Source of the DNA: Methylococcales symbiont of Iophon sp. n. MRB-2018
Lineage (GTDB): Bacteria; Pseudomonadota; Gammaproteobacteria; Methylococcales; Methylomonadaceae
Direction of reading: 5' to 3'
Assembly (NCBI GenBank): GCA_003666325.1
Contig: QPIL01000116.1
Location: forward strand, 1 to 64,000
Length of the DNA: 64,000 bases
The position numbers and the translations under genes are program-made. Each line of letters begins with the position of its first letter. The first letter of the stretch is position 1. The notes beneath the pieces are model-generated. The model was not told the origin of the DNA, made no database searches, and saw nothing but the letters and a program-made list of their open reading frames with translations. Below, in pieces: positions 26,472 to 39,910 of this stretch.

Positions 26472-28496
26472 ATGGGGTTTCTAGTTATTATTGTTCTAGC
26501 CGGAATTGTTTATACGCTTTTACCAAAAAAAGCGAATGAAAATTTGCTTGATACAGCACCTATTGATCTGGATATGGATCAGACTTATTACAGAGAAGAA
26601 AATGAAGCACAGCGATTAAGAGAAGAACGTTTGACACAGGAAGAGTATGAGATACAACAGCGTAGACTAGCATCTACTGCTGAATATGATTTAGAACAAC
26701 GTGAAGTAAGAATAAACCAAATAGAAACTGAATTAGAAACTCGGCAGTTTGGACTTAAAGAACAAGCTAGTAGATTATCTCGTGATGAATTAGAAACCAA
26801 TCAAACTCAACTAAACCTGAATGAACTACAAGATAAAATTTATCATGATGCGCTAGCTATTAAACAAGACCAAGATGCACTGAATGATCGTGAATTAGAT
26901 TTAGAAAGAGAAAGTAATCGCCTAAACCAATTTCGAGATAATTTAGCAGCAGAAGAAGAGTCAATTAGTCAGCAACAACAAAACGCTAGAGAAACCCAAT
27001 ACCAACTAGAAATCAAGCAAGAAGAAATAACCAAAAAAGAACTTGAAGTTACCCATTTAATTGAGCAATCTGAACGCGAATTAAAATCATTACGTGATGA
27101 TTTAGATTTAAAAGTATCTCAAATATCTGAAAACATAAATGTAATAGGTGTTACACAATCAGATATTAGTGAGACACAAACCAGAGCTTCTCAGGCAGAA
27201 CAAATTGCAATTAATATGCAAGTTGATCTGCAAAATCGTGAAGCGCAAGTGATTAAAGAAGAACGGCAAAATTTAATTATCCAAGAAGAGTTTTCAAATC
27301 AACAGCAAGAACTATCAAACATTCAAAATCAAATAACATCCAGAGAGGAGGAAATCTCTCGCATGGAGCGTGAGGTTGCTGATTCGGCAGCCCAAAAAGA
27401 AATTGAATTAGGTCGTCTGCAAGATGAACTGAATGGCCAGTCTCGAAGACTGTTCGAGGATCAGCAAGTTTTAGTTGCTATCAGAGACGATCTGGACACT
27501 AAAGAACAAGCTATTCTTCAACATGAAAGAGACACACTTCAAGTACAGGATGATTTGAAATACCGTCAAGCTCAAATTGATACAGATGAAGCCTCTATTC
27601 AATCTTTTCAGCAAGAGTTGCAAAGTCAAGGAGAAAAGATTGCACAACAAGAACAACAAACCAGAGATGCTCAATATGCTTTGAATGAAAAGGCAGAGGA
27701 AATTGTTAGAAAAGAGCGAGAAGTCCTTGTTTTACAGAAAGAGATAGAATATAGAGTTGAAATAGAAAGGACTGAAACAGAAAGGACTGAAATAGAAAGG
27801 GCTGAAATAGAAAGGACTGAAATAGAAAGGGCTGAAATAGAAAGGACTGAAATAGAAAGGGCTGAAATAGAAAGGGCTGAAACAGAAAGGACTGAAATAG
27901 AAAGGGCTGAAATAGAAAGGGCTGAAATAGAAAGGGCTGAAATAGAAAGGGCTGAAATAGAAAGGGCTGAAACAGAAAGGGCTGAAACAGAAATTTCCGA
28001 GATAAAACCCGTTATTGAAAATGAACGAGCAGAAATAGAGCGCCCTGAAGAAGTAGATGTGCCTGATGATACAGCTAGCGAGCCACCTCTTACAGAAGAA
28101 CAGATAAGATTAATTCAGAATAGTTGGAAAATGCTTGTTCCAGTGAAAGAACAAACGGCTGCATTGTTTTACAAGAAATTATTTTTGATAGCTCCTGAAG
28201 TCAGGCCTTTATTTACAAATGATATTAATAGTCAAGGTAAAAAATTAATTGCCTCAATCAATCTGGTCGTTAATTCATTAAATAATCTGGAGCATGTTGT
28301 ACCCGCCCTTCAAGCTATGGGAGAACGCCATGTAACTTATGGTGTTGAGCCTGTGCATTATGATATTGTTGCTGTTGCCTTGTTATGGACTTTTGAACAA
28401 GGCCTGGGTGATGCTTTTACAGAAGATGTTAAAGAAGCATGGACGATTGCTTATGGTTTAATTGCTTCAACAATGATTGCTGATATTGCAGAATAA
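26472..28496 (+). CDS. Membrane-anchored long coiled-coil protein with C-terminal globin domain
   Basis: 674 residues. Residues 2-17 form one N-terminal membrane helix. Residues about 40-520 are Glu/Gln-rich and predicted continuous coiled coil, containing 16 tandem pentapeptides ([AT]E[IT]ER, 429-508). Residues 540-674 form a single-domain globin of the flavohaemoglobin/Vgb class: LTEEQIRLIQNSWKML, a CD1-like Phe in LFTND, and a likely proximal His in MGERHVTYGV (H620). No reductase domain follows. Binding of heme and O2 or NO is inferred from the fold. Placed alone, with a 255-base upstream space and a GAGGATA-type ribosome binding site. The full architecture is not one I recognise. Confidence 0.85.
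   Translation: MGFLVIIVLAGIVYTLLPKKANENLLDTAPIDLDMDQTYYREENEAQRLREERLTQEEYEIQQRRLASTAEYDLEQREVRINQIETELETRQFGLKEQASRLSRDELETNQTQLNLNELQDKIYHDALAIKQDQDALNDRELDLERESNRLNQFRDNLAAEEESISQQQQNARETQYQLEIKQEEITKKELEVTHLIEQSERELKSLRDDLDLKVSQISENINVIGVTQSDISETQTRASQAEQIAINMQVDLQNREAQVIKEERQNLIIQEEFSNQQQELSNIQNQITSREEEISRMEREVADSAAQKEIELGRLQDELNGQSRRLFEDQQVLVAIRDDLDTKEQAILQHERDTLQVQDDLKYRQAQIDTDEASIQSFQQELQSQGEKIAQQEQQTRDAQYALNEKAEEIVRKEREVLVLQKEIEYRVEIERTETERTEIERAEIERTEIERAEIERTEIERAEIERAETERTEIERAEIERAEIERAEIERAEIERAETERAETEISEIKPVIENERAEIERPEEVDVPDDTASEPPLTEEQIRLIQNSWKMLVPVKEQTAALFYKKLFLIAPEVRPLFTNDINSQGKKLIASINLVVNSLNNLEHVVPALQAMGERHVTYGVEPVHYDIVAVALLWTFEQGLGDAFTEDVKEAWTIAYGLIASTMIADIAE
27756..27995 (+). 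repeat. In-gene 15-base tandem array (16 units)
   Basis: Sixteen units of GCTGAAATAGAAAGG and close variants (ACTGAAATAGAAAGG, GCTGAAACAGAAAGG) inside the coiled-coil globin gene. The units are in frame, so changes in copy number would lengthen or shorten the coil without a frameshift. Confidence 0.95.
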
Positions 28497-30883: not shown

Positions 30884-31110
30884 TCGGACTTAGCCATATC
30901 CAAAATGGAAAAAGCTACCAACAAGTAGCACAATATCTCTTACAAAGTTTAAGCACTATCAAACAATGGGATCGACATTGAGACCTCAGCATAACTCTGG
31001 AACGATCTTGCCAGGCTTGGAATGAAATACTAAATGAGGATGGTTTTGTTAGAAACTTGTGCGGTAGAGAGTGGAGTTGTTTGGTTTGGTTTGGTTATTT
31101 TTTGAATATT
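30878..31110 (+). pseudogene. Internally deleted IS630-family transposase remnant
   Basis: RLIGLSHIQNGKSYQQVAQY and LLQSLSTIKQW (30878-30970) match the N-terminal HTH of IS630 transposases. After a piece of family C hairpin (GAGACCTCAGCATAACTCTG, 30973-31000) comes CQAWNEILNEDGFVRNLCGR plus EWSCLVW (31009-31090), the usual C-terminus. The catalytic middle is missing. The C-terminal part recurs at 40064. Confidence 0.7.
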
Positions 31111-33801: not shown

Positions 33802-33901
33802 TAAATTTTGATAAATGTGGAACTCTGTATACACTATATAAGTCGCAAAGCGGTAATATTTTGTAATAAAAAATAATTTTATACTTTTACGAGGAATGAA
33901 A

Positions 33902-34495
33902 ATGAAAAAAATAAAAAAAACACCTTTTGCTGTAGCAATGGGTACAGCAGTTGTTTCAGCTTTTACTGCAACAGCAGTACATGCAGAAGCAAACCCTTTT
34001 GGTATGACCGAATTATCAGAAGGCTATATGCAAGTAGCAGAAACAACTAAAGGCTATAAAATGGTTAAAGCTACTGGCAAAAAAGCAAAAGATGGTGCCT
34101 GTGGTGAAGGGAAATGTGGTGGTATGATGGATGGCGAGAAAATGAAAAAAGGCATGGAAGGTGCTTGCGGTGAAATGAAAGCAGCAGAAGCAAAATGCGG
34201 CGAAGGTAAATGCGCAGGTATGATGGATGGCAAGAGAATGAAAAAAGGCATGGAAGGCGCTTGCGGTGAAATGATGAAAGGCAAAGAAGGTAAGTGCGGA
34301 GAAATGAAAGCAATGGAAGCTAAATGCGGCGAAGGTAAATGTGCAGGTATGATGGATGGCAAGAGAATGAAAAAAGGCAGGGAAGGCGCTTGCGGTGAAA
34401 TGATGAAAGGCAAAGAAGGTAAGTGCGGAGAAATGAAAGCAATGGAAGCTAAATGCGGCGAAGGTAAATGTGCTGCCAATAAAAAAGCAAAATAA
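33902..34495 (+). CDS. hvfA: Cys-rich EGKC-repeat precursor, HvfA-like (oxazolone/thioamide RiPP type)
   Basis: 197 residues. Signal peptide of about 27 residues (MKKIKKTPFAVAMGTAVVSA ... AVHA/EA). The mature part has about 35 ordinary residues, then a Lys/Met/Gly-rich tail with 13 Cys. EGKC occurs six times, alternating with EGACGEM and MMDGKRMKKG in repeats of about 42 residues. HvfA-type peptides are modified at EGKCG by a DUF692 enzyme and its partner to copper-binding oxazolone/thioamide groups; the same enzyme pair lies downstream. Start 33902 is chosen over 33896 because GAGGA (33891) has proper spacing. Strongly internally duplicated at DNA level. Confidence 0.85.
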   Translation: MKKIKKTPFAVAMGTAVVSAFTATAVHAEANPFGMTELSEGYMQVAETTKGYKMVKATGKKAKDGACGEGKCGGMMDGEKMKKGMEGACGEMKAAEAKCGEGKCAGMMDGKRMKKGMEGACGEMMKGKEGKCGEMKAMEAKCGEGKCAGMMDGKRMKKGREGACGEMMKGKEGKCGEMKAMEAKCGEGKCAANKKAK

Positions 34496-34502
34496 GATAT
34501 TG

Positions 34503-34576
34503 CAGATAGACGCTAACTATCTGTTTTTAAATAAAAATCAACCCGCATTCTCAATAATTGGGGGTGTGGGTTTTTT
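34503..34576 (+). terminator. Two successive intrinsic terminator-like hairpins after the precursor gene
   Basis: CAGATAG/CTATCTG with TTTTT (34503-34528) lies 8 bases after the stop; AACCCGCA/TGTGGGTT with TTTTTT (34540-34576) follows. They would cap most transcripts after the precursor and reduce transcription of the modifying enzymes. Confidence 0.75.
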
Positions 34577-34580
34577 GCTT

Positions 34581-34742
34581 AGAGATCTCAGCATAACTCT
34601 GGCGATGAGAAAAAAACGATAGAATTTTTCAGGTTTTAGTCAAAATACAAGTGTAATAATGGACTATTGCGCGTTATTTTGGCTGAAAGATGGAAAACTT
34701 CTAGCCTTTTTTATCCGTTCATGCGTTATGCTGAGGCCTCTT
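34581..34742. repeat. Family C element between precursor and enzyme genes
   Basis: AGAGATCTCAGCATAACTCT at the left and TTATGCTGAGGCCTCTT at the right are inverted, with AAAAACGATAGAAT and TTCTAGCCTTTTTT as inner complementary parts. The element is 162 bases, apparently non-autonomous, and splits the RiPP operon. Confidence 0.85.
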
Positions 34743-34774
34743 AATAGTGTTATAAAATGAATAGAGGGTTTCTA

Positions 34775-35626
34775 ATGGATGGCACAACAAATTTGGTTGA
34801 ACATACAGGTCTCGGCTTACGTCGATCCTTTTTAAAAGAAATTGTTGAAAACCCAGCTAAAAATGTCAGCTTTTATGAAGTTGCACCTGAAAACTGGATT
34901 ACCATTGGTGGAAAACTAGGTAAGCAATTCAGATCTATGACTGAGCGTTTTGATTTTGTTTGTCATGGTCTTTCTTTATCAATTGGCTCAACAGATCCTC
35001 TGGATGAAAAATTTGTTCATGATGTGAAAGATTTTATGGGTGAACATCAAATCAAGCTTTATAGCGAGCATCTGAGTTACTGTAGCCATGAAGGACATTT
35101 ATATGACTTGATGCCAATTCCTTTTACAGAAGAGGCGGTGACTCACGTTGCTGAAAGAATCAGGCGTGTTCAAGACATTCTGGAACAAAAAATAGCAATA
35201 GAAAATGTTTCCTATTATGCTGCACCAGGGCAGGAAATGGCTGAAATAGATTTTTTTAATGCGGTGGTTGAACAAGCTGATTGCAATATTTTATTAGATA
35301 TTAATAATATTTATGTGAATAGCATTAATCATGGCTATGATGCGAACAACTTCTTACGAGCAATGCCATCTGATCGCATTGCCTATGCCCATATTGCTGG
35401 ACATTATGTAGAGGCAGATGATTTTTTGGTTGATACACATGGTGCAGATGTCATTGACCCAGTTTGGAAGTTATTGGCAAAGGCGTATGAATTATATGGC
35501 GTATTTCCAACCCTATTAGAGCGTGATTTTAACATCCCTTCTCTGAATGTTTTATTGAAGGAAGTCGATACCATTAATGCCATTCAAAATGCCTGGTATC
35601 AACAACATGAGCAAAAGTCGGCATGA
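34775..35626 (+). CDS. hvfB: DUF692 multinuclear iron oxidative enzyme (MNIO), HvfB/BufB-like
   Basis: 283 residues from ATG at 34775 (GAGGG 7 bases before; an ATG at 34757 lacks a site). TIM-barrel family with metal-ligand candidates HGLSLS (H64), SEHLSYC (H99), ENVSYY (E143), DINNIYVN (D175), HIAGH (H206, H210) and DTHG (D220, H222). MNIO enzymes oxidise cysteines of the precursor to oxazolone/thioamide groups with a DUF2063 partner. Follows the precursor gene across two terminators and a family C element; overlaps the partner gene. Confidence 0.92.
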   Translation: MDGTTNLVEHTGLGLRRSFLKEIVENPAKNVSFYEVAPENWITIGGKLGKQFRSMTERFDFVCHGLSLSIGSTDPLDEKFVHDVKDFMGEHQIKLYSEHLSYCSHEGHLYDLMPIPFTEEAVTHVAERIRRVQDILEQKIAIENVSYYAAPGQEMAEIDFFNAVVEQADCNILLDINNIYVNSINHGYDANNFLRAMPSDRIAYAHIAGHYVEADDFLVDTHGADVIDPVWKLLAKAYELYGVFPTLLERDFNIPSLNVLLKEVDTINAIQNAWYQQHEQKSA

Positions 35627-36395
35627 TGTGATGCAGATTGATTTTAAAGCAAAACAATCTGAATTTGCAGCTTATATAAGAGACCCTTTTAATAACCCAA
35701 GACCTAGTGATGTTAAAAGAGAACGTATAGAAGTTTATCGAGAACTTTTTTTTAATAATGTCGATGGCTTTTTATGCAGTAACTTTCCTGTTTTAAAAAC
35801 CATACTGAGTGACGAACAATGGTATCAACTGTCACAGGATTTTTTTAAAAACCATGCGTGTACAAGCCCTTATTTTTCTGAAATTGCGGAAGAGTTTTTA
35901 GATTTCTTACAAAACCAGCGCAAAAATAATTCGGATTATCCCTTTATGCTTGAACTTGCCCATTACGAATGGGTTGAAATGGCATTATCCATTTCTAAAG
36001 AGCATGTTTTAGTTAATACAGAAGATCAGCTAGCAAATATTTTTCAGCAGACTCTTTCTTTATCAACACTCGCCTGGCCACTGGTTTATCAATATCCAGT
36101 ACAGCAAATCTGCCCTTCTTTTCTACCTGAAGTTGCACCAGAGCAGCCGACTTATCTACTGGTCTACCGAGATAAGGTAGATGATGTAAAATTTATTCAA
36201 ATTTCGCCTATTACTTTCCGCTTGTTGCAAATATTGCAGGAAAATGAAGCAATGTCTTGTCAGTGTTGTTTAAAACAAATTGCTGACGAATCAGCATCCC
36301 CTGATCCTGAAAAAATAATGGCTTCAGGTCTGGAAATTATTGAAGACTTGGCGCGGAAAAATATTATTATTGAATATGGTATAAGACCAAAGTAA
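35607..36395 (+). CDS. hvfC: DUF2063 partner protein, HvfC/BufC-like
   Basis: About 262 residues. The N-terminal DUF2063 domain (QSEFAAYIRDP, RERIEVYRELFFNNVDGFL, SNFPVLKTIL, YFSEIAEEFLDFL) and C-terminal helical/wing part (ITFRLLQILQENEAMSC) match the standard partner of MNIO enzymes; it presents the leader to the enzyme. Start is uncertain: 35607 overlaps the enzyme gene by 20 bases, while 35631 begins just after it. No DoxX (HvfD) gene follows, although many such operons have one. Confidence 0.88.
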   Translation: MSKSRHDVMQIDFKAKQSEFAAYIRDPFNNPRPSDVKRERIEVYRELFFNNVDGFLCSNFPVLKTILSDEQWYQLSQDFFKNHACTSPYFSEIAEEFLDFLQNQRKNNSDYPFMLELAHYEWVEMALSISKEHVLVNTEDQLANIFQQTLSLSTLAWPLVYQYPVQQICPSFLPEVAPEQPTYLLVYRDKVDDVKFIQISPITFRLLQILQENEAMSCQCCLKQIADESASPDPEKIMASGLEIIEDLARKNIIIEYGIRPK

Positions 36396-36425: not shown

Positions 36426-36538
36426 CCAAAGTAACTGGAACCTCTGTTACACACGTCATTCCCAAAGTCTGTTATCGGGAATCTAGTTTTAAACACCTGG
36501 ATTCCTGCTAAGAACATGCAGGAATGACGGAGGGAGTG
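36426..36538 (+). repeat. Central fragment of MITE family A
   Basis: AAAGTAACTGGAACCTCTGT followed by the CGTCATTCCC...GGAATGACGGAGGG hairpin and AGTGAAGT, as in the full copies, without heptamers, terminal ends or 3' body. Lies between the RiPP genes and the autotransporter. Confidence 0.85.
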
Positions 36539-36643: not shown

Positions 36644-39600
36644 CTAAAACTTAAAGTCGCCACGCAACTCTATGCTATCCCCTTTTTCTCTACGCTCGCC
36701 TATTAGGTTTAGGCTCAATATAGAATCAATTGTCCAGCGTCCGCCTATATTATAGCTTTGTGTACCGTTTGTTAGGTTTGCCCCAGCGTAAGGGCTGAGT
36801 AAACCACGACCAAAGAACCCAGGTAGTCCGTAACCTAACTCGGTGTTTAACTGTAGGCTTCTATTGTTGTTGTTATCCTCATCATTTGCATCGTTTACAC
36901 CATTTTCGTAGCTATTAGTTACTATGGATGACCGCTGCCCTATTCTATTGCCAACATTGTCTGGCGTGTCGCCCCAAGCAGGTTGTAGGCTTAACCATAA
37001 ACCTTGCCCACTGTTGTTGGCTTGGTATTTGACCAGTCCACTGAGTCCCCATTCTTTGTAATTTGACTCATGTGCCACTAAACCATGCGCCCGTAACTCC
37101 ATTTGTAGTCCTTGTAGGTTGCTGTAACGGTAGCTACCTGCTAACTCTATGCCACCACCAGTCTCACCACTGCCATCGTCATAACGTATTCCTAGCTCTA
37201 TGGATGGGCTGATGCTGGCACCGCTGGCTAGGGTATGTTTATGACTACCTTCTAATACCATACGGTAACGACGGGCATCAATGGACAATCCTTTAGAATC
37301 CGTTAGCTTGCTTTTACCCACCTTAATATTAGATAGCGATACCTCGCCTTTAAGGCGTAGGGTGGTGGTGCCGGGTATATCTAGCCAGTTATCGCTGGAT
37401 AATAGATTGTCACTACCACCAAAGGCGAGACTATATAGCTCGGTGTCACGGTTAGTTTTGGTTTCGATGCCATTGCTGTCATCGTCAATTTCTACCTCGC
37501 CCTGACCATAACCTAATGTACCCCAGACACGTCCGCCTGGTGATAAATCATAAGCAATATAAGGGTGAACGCTGTATAGGGTATGGTTCAGGTTGCCTTC
37601 GCTGTTATTTGTGCTATCGCGTTTATAGTCAACATCGCTTTCGCTGTAAGAGAAAGCGGCACCAGCCACTAGGTCTTGGTTTATACGGGCATCAATACCC
37701 ACAGTACCACCGACTATTCCACCTTCCCAGTCAACGCCAGAGACATCATCTGCAAGGTTCAGGTAATCACCACTGCCCCATAGTGTCATATTATTAACAC
37801 CGTAGTCATTATCCCCTGCTACATTCAGCGGGATGAGGAAAGAGGAATTATTAAGCATTTGTTTAAGGTTCAATCCTTTTTCTATCACAGTGCGGGCATT
37901 GTTATTGATTAGCTCTTGCAAGTTTGAGCTACCCCCTAGATTAAGGCTGACATTGGCAGTGTCTGTTGGGGAGGTAGATAATGCTTGGTCAATACGGTTG
38001 CTGATATTGTCCACTGCCATTTTTGATGTTGCTCTTAGCAGTTGTGGCAGGATGGCATCTAGCACTTGCTCTTCGGCTGCGGCGTTTAAACTGTCACCAT
38101 TGGTGACGGTGACGGTATAGGTCACGATGCTTGTGTCATTTCCTGCAGTCACTACAATGCTAATGGTGTTATTACCCTCGCTCAGTCCAGAGACTCGCCC
38201 GTTGGCATCGACTGTCAAAGCACTGCCGTCTGCCGCCGTACCACTAATGACAAAGCTGGCATTGCTATCAGAGAGGGTTGGGGTTACAGTCAGGCTGGTT
38301 ACCGCATTAGCAATGCTGACGTCGTAGTCAATCGTACCGCTGGCAAAGACTGGGTCTAAGGTGCCAGCGGACAAGGTTAAGGCACTCAAGCTGGCAACGG
38401 TGTGATCCAGTGTATAACTTGGCTGATTAGCGTCTGTGTCTGTGGGTGTGGTGTTAGTTAAGATTCTACCTGCCGTATCTGTAATGTTCTGATTGCTAGC
38501 AAATGCCAGCGTTACAGTGCCGTTTAGCGCTGCTAGATTGCCGCCAGTAACGTTTACTAGATACACGGCACCTGAGCCGGTAACAGTGGCTGTGGCAGTG
38601 GTGCCGCTAACCGTAAAGTCGGTACCATCTACATTCTGTACATCTCTACTAAAAGTTACCGTCCAGATGAGTGTGTCGGCACTGGTGGTTTCAGCAGTCG
38701 GCGAGGTGCGCATTATGCTGGTTACGGCTGGAAGGCCAACAGCTACTGTGAAATCTATGCTGTTACTGGTGCCAAACTCTGCGTTGTCTACGGCAATGCG
38801 CACGGTATAAGTGCCATCTGCTACCATGCCTGAATTAAAGCTTAGAGTATTTGATACAAGGGCAAATCTTGCATTATCGCTACCCTCAGCGGCATCACCC
38901 GTTGCCAGTGTGTATGTTGGGTTTTGACCGCTTAAAACAGCATTTTGGGCGACAAAGTTAAAGTCAAGTACGTTTAAGTTATCAACCCCGCCATAATCAG
39001 AGTTTGCTGTTTGTAGATCAGCAACAGTCTCATCAACATACCAACGACCGAGGTTTTGGTTAAAAACATTGGCATTGGTGAACATGCTGGCCATATCCAT
39101 TACGCTAGCAACATTCCAGCCGCCGATGTCTTGATTAAAAGCCCTGGCACTGGAGAACATGAAGTTCATATCCGTTACCCTAGCAACATTCCAGCTACCG
39201 ATGTCTTGATTAAAATCACTGGCAGTGAAGAACATCTGGTTCATATTCGTTACGCTAGCAACATTCCAGCTACCGATGTCTTGATTAAAATCACTGGCAC
39301 CATCGAACATGCCGGCCATATCCGTTACGCTAGCAACATTCCAGCCGCCGATGTCTTGATTAAAAACATTGGTATCGGCGAACATGCTGGACATATTCGT
39401 TACGCTAGCAACATTCCAGTTACTGATGTTTTGATTAAAAACAGCAACAGCGGCACCGGCAAACATAAGGCGCATACTCGTTACCCCGCTAAGGTCTGGA
39501 CTATCGTTTGCACTCATCATCATCGCGTTGGCACCATGAAATGCACCCTCCATGCTCGTCCAGTTGGCAGTTCCCCATTGCTGTACGTCTATTAATTTCT

Positions 39601-39910
39601 CTCTATCCATGCCAGAACTCAAGTTAAAGCGGGTGATGGTGTTTGAGACTGTGACTGTGTAGTCGCCAGCAGTGGCGTAGTCATGCGTAGGGTTACTGCT
39701 TGCAATGACTTCGGTAGTACCATCGCCCCATTTAATGGTGTAACTGCCCTCACTAGGGAAGGTCAGAGTCAGATCATTCGCAGGCATCCGCCATTCGGTA
39801 TTAAATGATTCGTGTGAGCTTGCCTGTGAGGCGGTGCTGAATAAAAAACCCGATGCCAGTAGCAGTAGCATGGGAGTAACAATACGGCGGGTAATATTTG
39901 TTTTTAACAT
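36644..39910 (-). CDS. Autotransporter with BspA-like (DUF285) repeats and Ig-like domains
   Basis: 1088 residues. Signal peptide about 1-30 (LLLLASGFLFSTASQAS). A PKD-like part follows (EGSYTIKWGDGTTEVIASS). Six repeats of about 25 residues with the pattern MxxMFxxAxxFNQDIGxWNVASVT mark DUF285 at about 110-290. Ig-like and cadherin-like segments come next (VTSIMRTSPTAETTSADTLI; LSALTLSAGTLDPVFASGTI). A linker and a C-terminal autotransporter barrel (about 800-1088, ending ELRGDFKF with terminal Phe) complete it. It should be exported through the outer membrane as a surface adhesin or receptor. Stands alone; base composition is higher in G+C than its surroundings, suggesting transfer. Confidence 0.92.
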   Translation of the reverse strand: MLKTNITRRIVTPMLLLLASGFLFSTASQASSHESFNTEWRMPANDLTLTFPSEGSYTIKWGDGTTEVIASSNPTHDYATAGDYTVTVSNTITRFNLSSGMDREKLIDVQQWGTANWTSMEGAFHGANAMMMSANDSPDLSGVTSMRLMFAGAAVAVFNQNISNWNVASVTNMSSMFADTNVFNQDIGGWNVASVTDMAGMFDGASDFNQDIGSWNVASVTNMNQMFFTASDFNQDIGSWNVARVTDMNFMFSSARAFNQDIGGWNVASVMDMASMFTNANVFNQNLGRWYVDETVADLQTANSDYGGVDNLNVLDFNFVAQNAVLSGQNPTYTLATGDAAEGSDNARFALVSNTLSFNSGMVADGTYTVRIAVDNAEFGTSNSIDFTVAVGLPAVTSIMRTSPTAETTSADTLIWTVTFSRDVQNVDGTDFTVSGTTATATVTGSGAVYLVNVTGGNLAALNGTVTLAFASNQNITDTAGRILTNTTPTDTDANQPSYTLDHTVASLSALTLSAGTLDPVFASGTIDYDVSIANAVTSLTVTPTLSDSNASFVISGTAADGSALTVDANGRVSGLSEGNNTISIVVTAGNDTSIVTYTVTVTNGDSLNAAAEEQVLDAILPQLLRATSKMAVDNISNRIDQALSTSPTDTANVSLNLGGSSNLQELINNNARTVIEKGLNLKQMLNNSSFLIPLNVAGDNDYGVNNMTLWGSGDYLNLADDVSGVDWEGGIVGGTVGIDARINQDLVAGAAFSYSESDVDYKRDSTNNSEGNLNHTLYSVHPYIAYDLSPGGRVWGTLGYGQGEVEIDDDSNGIETKTNRDTELYSLAFGGSDNLLSSDNWLDIPGTTTLRLKGEVSLSNIKVGKSKLTDSKGLSIDARRYRMVLEGSHKHTLASGASISPSIELGIRYDDGSGETGGGIELAGSYRYSNLQGLQMELRAHGLVAHESNYKEWGLSGLVKYQANNSGQGLWLSLQPAWGDTPDNVGNRIGQRSSIVTNSYENGVNDANDEDNNNNRSLQLNTELGYGLPGFFGRGLLSPYAGANLTNGTQSYNIGGRWTIDSILSLNLIGERREKGDSIELRGDFKF

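Follow-up and report, generated by a model that had tools for sequence, protein, structure and literature searches.

An HvfABC-type RiPP locus with a Met-rich, repeat-expanded precursor in a Methylococcales methanotroph

The window (the whole stretch of 64,000 nucleotides analyzed here, from contig QPIL01000116.1 of the Methylococcales symbiont of Iophon sp. n. MRB-2018) contains a three-gene RiPP locus that we read as HvfABC of the captophorin/oxazolin type. According to this reading, to which we assign a probability of about 0.75, all 13 Cys of the precursor would be converted to 5-thiooxazoles and the product would act as a periplasmic copper sink, the precursor being a Met-rich, repeat-expanded variant of its lineage. 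Loci of three genes that convert Cys in a secreted peptide to copper-binding rings are already known. The new elements are that the locus is near-universal among the methane-oxidizing relatives of the organism, and that in its family the precursor contains a regularly spaced, Met-rich unit with three Cys. The features are listed in Table 1.

Table 1. Features of the hvfABC locus (positions in the window).
Feature	Position	Strand	Properties and basis
hvfA, RiPP precursor	33902..34495	+	197 aa, 13 Cys; ORF calls, NF050137, start by sister-genome comparison
Probable Sec signal peptide (ATAVHA/EA)	33902..33985	+	Read from sequence
Conserved mature N-terminus, NPFGMTELSEGYMQ	33992..34033	+	Alignment of 45 precursors
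Met-rich three-Cys unit, first copy, shortened	34097..34192	+	Alignment of copies c1-c4
Met-rich three-Cys unit, second copy, KCGEGKCAGMMDGKRMKKGMEGACGEMMKGKEGKCGE	34193..34303	+	37 aa; pattern search, copy alignment
Met-rich three-Cys unit, third copy	34322..34432	+	37 aa; copy alignment
Two tandem 129-nt stretches	34217..34474	+	127/129 identical
Terminator-like 15-bp hairpin and T run between hvfA and hvfB	34540..34572	+	Fold z-score of region -5.7
MITE-like insertion with terminal inverted repeats (CTCAGCATAAC)	34580..34740	.	About 40 genome copies; absent at sister locus
hvfB, MNIO	34757..35626	+	PF05114 357.6 bits, HvfB equivalog 446.6 bits, PDB 3bww
hvfC, DUF2063/PME1 partner	35577..36395	+	PF09836, PF22106, HvfC equivalog, PDB 3dee

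The HvfABC-type assignment, first made in an earlier note on this DNA, is borne out by the gene order hvfA-hvfB-hvfC and by the scores of HvfB and HvfC, both of which exceed the cut-offs of their NCBIfam equivalogs (446.6 bits against 360 for the HvfB-family model PRK05409.1, and 305.8 against 142 for NF050145). Among solved structures, those nearest in sequence are the H. somni MNIO for HvfB (3bww, E = 1.5e-69) and gonococcal PME1 for HvfC (3dee, E = 2.3e-8). HvfA scores above the HvfA-family domain model NF050137 (47.4 bits, cut-off 19.5) and below the HvfA equivalog NF050188 (34 bits, cut-off 95). As to membership in bufferin 1/2, a DUF2282 match was not found and the BufB score is 276 bits against a cut-off of 310. 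The ATG of hvfA at 33902 lies 6 nt after GAGGA and agrees with the start in the sister genome; the alternative first ATG at 33896 (ORF 33896-34495) would yield 199 aa. Comparison with the sister genome and a GAGGG site suggest 34775 as the probable start of hvfB, and hvfC probably starts at 35607 or 35631.

The DoxX-like hvfX that follows hvfC in the HvfABCX operon, optional in the wider family, is absent in the window, as the earlier note had observed. The next gene, which runs on the opposite strand, encodes a DUF285 protein, and the only DoxX found by genome search sits on another contig (C59). None of the relatives' loci tested has DoxX after hvfC, and their downstream genes differ. Missing DoxX is not distinctive for the locus of the window. 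In the sister genome the interval between hvfC and a glyoxalase gene contains no more than a short ORF; here it holds the DUF285 gene (36644-39910, minus strand), whose 1088-aa product combines DUF285/PARCEL repeats with a cadherin-like domain and, judged by eye, has a C-terminus like that of autotransporters. Also downstream of hvfC, at 36455-36535, is a short inverted repeat (GTCATTCC and GGAATGACGG) that resembles a dispersed repeat.

A search of the genome, which measures 2.09 Mb and is 98.6% complete, found one MNIO gene, one HvfA-type precursor and PmoA; the organism is a Methylococcales methanotroph. Its closest HvfB outside its own genome, 95% identical, comes from a Methylococcales symbiont of the sponge Hymedesmia. 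Within the order, HvfC above cut-off is present in 218 of 234 genomes, as against 89 of 276 genomes drawn evenly across the class. Methanotrophs of the Gammaproteobacteria rely on a copper enzyme, but methanobactin is known best from their alphaproteobacterial counterparts. A near-universal copper-RiPP locus makes a strong candidate for a share in Methylococcales copper handling. That the product serves acquisition or storage of copper for methane monooxygenase rather than detoxification is possible but rather doubtful. The near-universality of the locus in a methanotroph order, the presence of PmoA in the genome and the absence from it of a methanobactin-type MNIO (its only MNIO, HvfB, scores 50.3 bits on the MbnB model TIGR04159, cut-off 325) are in its favor, but the characterized homologues are associated with copper excess (PMC12668002, PMC12452194), genomes outside Methylococcales often carry the locus as well, and its co-occurrence with PmoA is imperfect. 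In family f5, PmoA is found in seven of ten genomes and HvfC above cut-off in none of the ten, all of which have another MNIO; conversely, genomes G001 and G002 have HvfC and lack a PmoA match. A strict link of hvfABC to pMMO was rejected on these grounds. At one f5 locus (L143, 1011-2313), the MNIO gene is preceded by one for a protein with a signal and repeated ACKG motifs, of Cys-Lys type; this arrangement represents another branch within the enzyme superfamily.

The 13 Cys of HvfA span residues 69-192, and all lie within a single pentamer class, [DE][GA][KA]C[GA]: EGKCG, EGACG, EAKCG and EGKCA occur three times each and DGACG once. In 20,000 shuffles of the core the class occurs 0.07 times on average and three times at most. 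Translation of hvfA confirms the six EGKC and 13 Cys counted earlier; together with three EAKC, there are nine Lys-Cys sites, and the other four are Ala-Cys sites. Residues following Cys are also restricted: in 74 distinct precursors, including that of the window, G or A follows 643 of 669 Cys, and FonBC favors a small residue at this position (PMC12668002). In vitro, FonBC, the homologue studied in most detail, processes EAKCG/EGKCG and also takes Asp at position 1 and Ala at positions 3 and 5, and every single deviation of HvfA from EGKCG (D1, A2, A3, A5) is found in FonA or tolerated by FonBC, a tolerance that covers single substitutions, while Cys 69 of HvfA combines D1 with A3 (PMC12668002). 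On the enzyme side, R22/R23 and D257/F258 of HvfB are the counterparts of the substrate-contacting R15/R16 and D249/F250 of FonB. All four are kept in nearly all of 132 aligned HvfB rows, and in the HvfB of the window they are as in EGKCG enzymes. The single pentamer class, the tolerance of FonBC and the conserved contact residues make the 13 sites reasonable substrates of one reaction.

It is unlikely that only the nine Lys-Cys sites become thiooxazoles, the four Ala-Cys remaining free thiols or disulphides. Although EGKCG is the family's commonest motif (PMC12668002) and Lys precedes 90% of Cys in 18 precursors from other Gammaproteobacteria, the figure is 24% in the window's own family (f1), where Ala or Ser stands before 60% of Cys. 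In about 30 precursors E[GA]KC[GA] is missing altogether, yet these lie beside a conserved HvfB of the same kind, and the acceptance of Ala at position 3 by FonBC points in the same direction. Modification of all 13 Cys is thus what is to be expected from their belonging to one pentamer class.

The chemistry was earlier given as oxazolone/thioamide. That followed the first report, which has since been revised: alkylation-assisted NMR has led to a 5-thiooxazole structure for the products of H. influenzae and N. gonorrhoeae (PMC12668002), and the H. influenzae group now gives oxazolin six 5-thiooxazoles (PMC13419390). Shared chemistry or copper binding has been reported for the H. influenzae, N. 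gonorrhoeae, Fontimonas and Microbulbifer products (PMC12668002, PMC13419390, PMC12538549). In H. influenzae the signal peptide doubles as leader (PMC13419390). The N-terminus of HvfA has, by eye, a basic start, a hydrophobic stretch and AHA/EA, and is conserved in relatives; among 45 aligned precursors, P34, F35, G43, Y44 and M45 are invariant. From analogy with the characterized systems we infer the following sequence of events. HvfC and HvfB would bind the precursor via its signal peptide and N-terminus, and HvfB would oxidize its Cys one by one to 5-thiooxazoles. The modified peptide would then be exported by Sec and serve as a periplasmic copper sink or buffer, with the thiooxazole thiols as ligands.

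The core of the precursor is repeat-expanded, as had been noticed earlier, but its period is 43 residues (129 nt) instead of about 42. Tandem Repeats Finder gives a period of 129, with 2.6 copies and 93% matches. The in-register stretches 34217-34345 and 34346-34474 differ at only 2 of 129 bases, which indicates a recent tandem duplication. Precursors of the same genus differ in copy number and ends, and the copy number in hvfA itself is to be read with the proviso that short-read assembly can collapse or misjudge such repeats.

Conservation of the core was followed in the 45 precursors, which had been picked by leader and position before hvfB, independently of the core. The core positions that are invariant or at least 90% conserved form a single block, C106-G-x-M-M, K114-M-K-x-G, E120 and C123-G-x-M-M-K-G-K-E-G-x-C134-G. 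The Met/Lys-rich stretch described earlier as a linker belongs to a Met-rich three-Cys unit common to precursors of the family; it thus ranks with the best-conserved segments of the core and is not a spacer. A pattern search found 80 distinct copies of the unit in relatives, all exactly 37 residues long with Cys spacings of 17 and 11. Since the pattern left length free solely between MM and KMK, imposing length and letters elsewhere, the constant length is informative in that interval; the invariant columns in an alignment of 50 copies are likewise partly so by construction of the pattern. A similar unit pattern is present in 71 of the 81 precursors assigned to f1, in which loci L002-L081 were placed by organism title and which leans towards relatives of the window because the loci were found through HvfB similarity to it. 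The pattern is absent from all 12 precursors of family f4 and all 18 from other Gammaproteobacteria. HvfA of the window is one of the ten f1 precursors that miss the pattern, because it has RMKKG in place of KMKKG. The mean Met content of the core is 12.0% in f1 and 5.2% in other Gammaproteobacteria (Mann-Whitney p = 4e-7, a test that ignores relatedness).

At E <= 0.001, NF050137 matches 23 of the 45 precursors, and roughly half of those sampled are recognized by neither HvfA model, so current annotation can miss them. Pfam gave chance-level matches at most for the 45 (two CopK, best E 0.18), and a profile search of the PDB with the precursor gave no match. In the main texts of the literature searched, mostly outside subscription journals, we found no description of the unit and no paper joining Methylococcales or Methylomonas with MNIO/DUF692. 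AlphaFold2 models the whole precursor with a mean pLDDT of 53.8, the units alone standing at about 65-82 within that model, and the unit by itself with a pLDDT of 71.1 as a helix-hairpin-helix, for which Foldseek found no match in the PDB. The predicted helix-hairpin-helix offers a hint but does not establish a fold. Confidence is low for the whole precursor, and since AlphaFold2 treats Cys as unmodified, no fold is claimed.

The conserved Met-rich unit raises a concrete structure-function question. In the lineage of the window the conserved methionines may be further copper ligands. A more extended proposal, which we hold to be speculative and on balance improbable, is that the 37-residue unit is a copper module in which thiooxazole thiols and Met thioethers act jointly, tandem expansion sets the capacity, and the product provides methane monooxygenase with copper or shields it in methanotrophs that lack methanobactin. 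Methionine ligation and a role for methane monooxygenase are conjectural, and so is the stoichiometry of precursor and enzymes: a terminator after hvfA would permit more precursor than enzyme.

The hairpin after hvfA is kept in the sister genome with changed bases. A scan found a terminator-like hairpin between hvfA and hvfB in 15 of 87 f1 loci (some genomes counted twice), a frequency that makes it a feature of the window's lineage and on which it was rejected as a general feature of the family. The MITE-like element that follows it (about 156 bp, genome copies 86-100% identical) is not part of the RiPP system; further exact CTCAGCATAAC matches in the window are at 30985, 44355, 50821 and 61541. 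With the insertion included, the gap between hvfA and hvfB is 261 bp, compared with 112 bp in the sister genome. This difference might suggest that the element and the terminator cut off hvfBC and leave the precursor unmodified in the organism, but that is very improbable: the terminator is common to the sister, both genes after it are intact, with 95% (hvfB) and 93% (hvfC) identity to their sister counterparts, and the hvfA repeats have kept all their Cys. Upstream of the locus, a promoter scan found no more sites than in shuffles, and the DNA aligns well with the sister genome only; for these reasons no regulatory site is claimed.

The earlier suggestion that alternating motifs receive two different modifications has, in spite of the fixed order in which EGACG and EGKCG/A recur, hardly any likelihood, because both contexts belong to one pentamer class whose variation FonBC tolerates, the genome has a single MNIO with unchanged active-site contact residues, and an adjoining tailoring gene is absent.

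Among known systems, HvfABC/oxazolin of H. influenzae (PMC13419390) shares with the window the A-B-C order, the NCBIfam equivalogs for the MNIO and its PME1 partner, a signal peptide (probable in the case of the window) and the EGKCG repeats. Oxazolin has six modified Cys, whereas the window has 13 candidate sites, four of them preceded by Ala. The locus of the window also differs in its Met-rich 37-aa units, the lack of DoxX (HvfX), the terminator and insertion between A and B, and a score below the HvfA equivalog cut-off. FonABC of Fontimonas thermophila (fontiphorin, captophorins; PMC12668002) resembles it as a minimal ABC locus without DoxX, with an EAKCG/EGKCG core and the same MNIO contact residues, but FonA has seven sites, compared with 13 and Met-rich units in HvfA. 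The Buf_EGKCG/oxazolin precursors with 17-residue repeats (PMC12452194) are similarly long and repeat-expanded in EGKCG, and the first two spaced Cys of the window's unit are also 17 apart. However, two EGKCG fall within every 17 residues of the published repeat, and the unit has 37 residues, Cys spacings of 17 then 11, and a period of 43. Bulbicupramide MmrABC of Microbulbifer (PMC12538549) is likewise an EGKCG-type copper-binding RiPP conserved across a taxon; it is conserved in one genus with five to eight Cys, whereas the locus described here extends over an order and has a unit that is specific to a single family. The methanobactin system (MbnABC), from alphaproteobacterial methanotrophs, would be another case of an MNIO-made copper-binding RiPP in a methanotroph, if the peptide of the window binds copper as its homologues do, but MbnABC differs in precursor, partner and ring chemistry.

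Two further observations concern gene arrangement and content. In four loci (L037, L039, L041, and L050), two tandem precursor genes precede one MNIO, the first having two to four Cys. Elsewhere in the window, at 26472-28496 on the plus strand, a 674-aa protein combines a long coiled coil of ERAEI repeats with a C-terminal globin domain (PF00042, E 6.7e-15).
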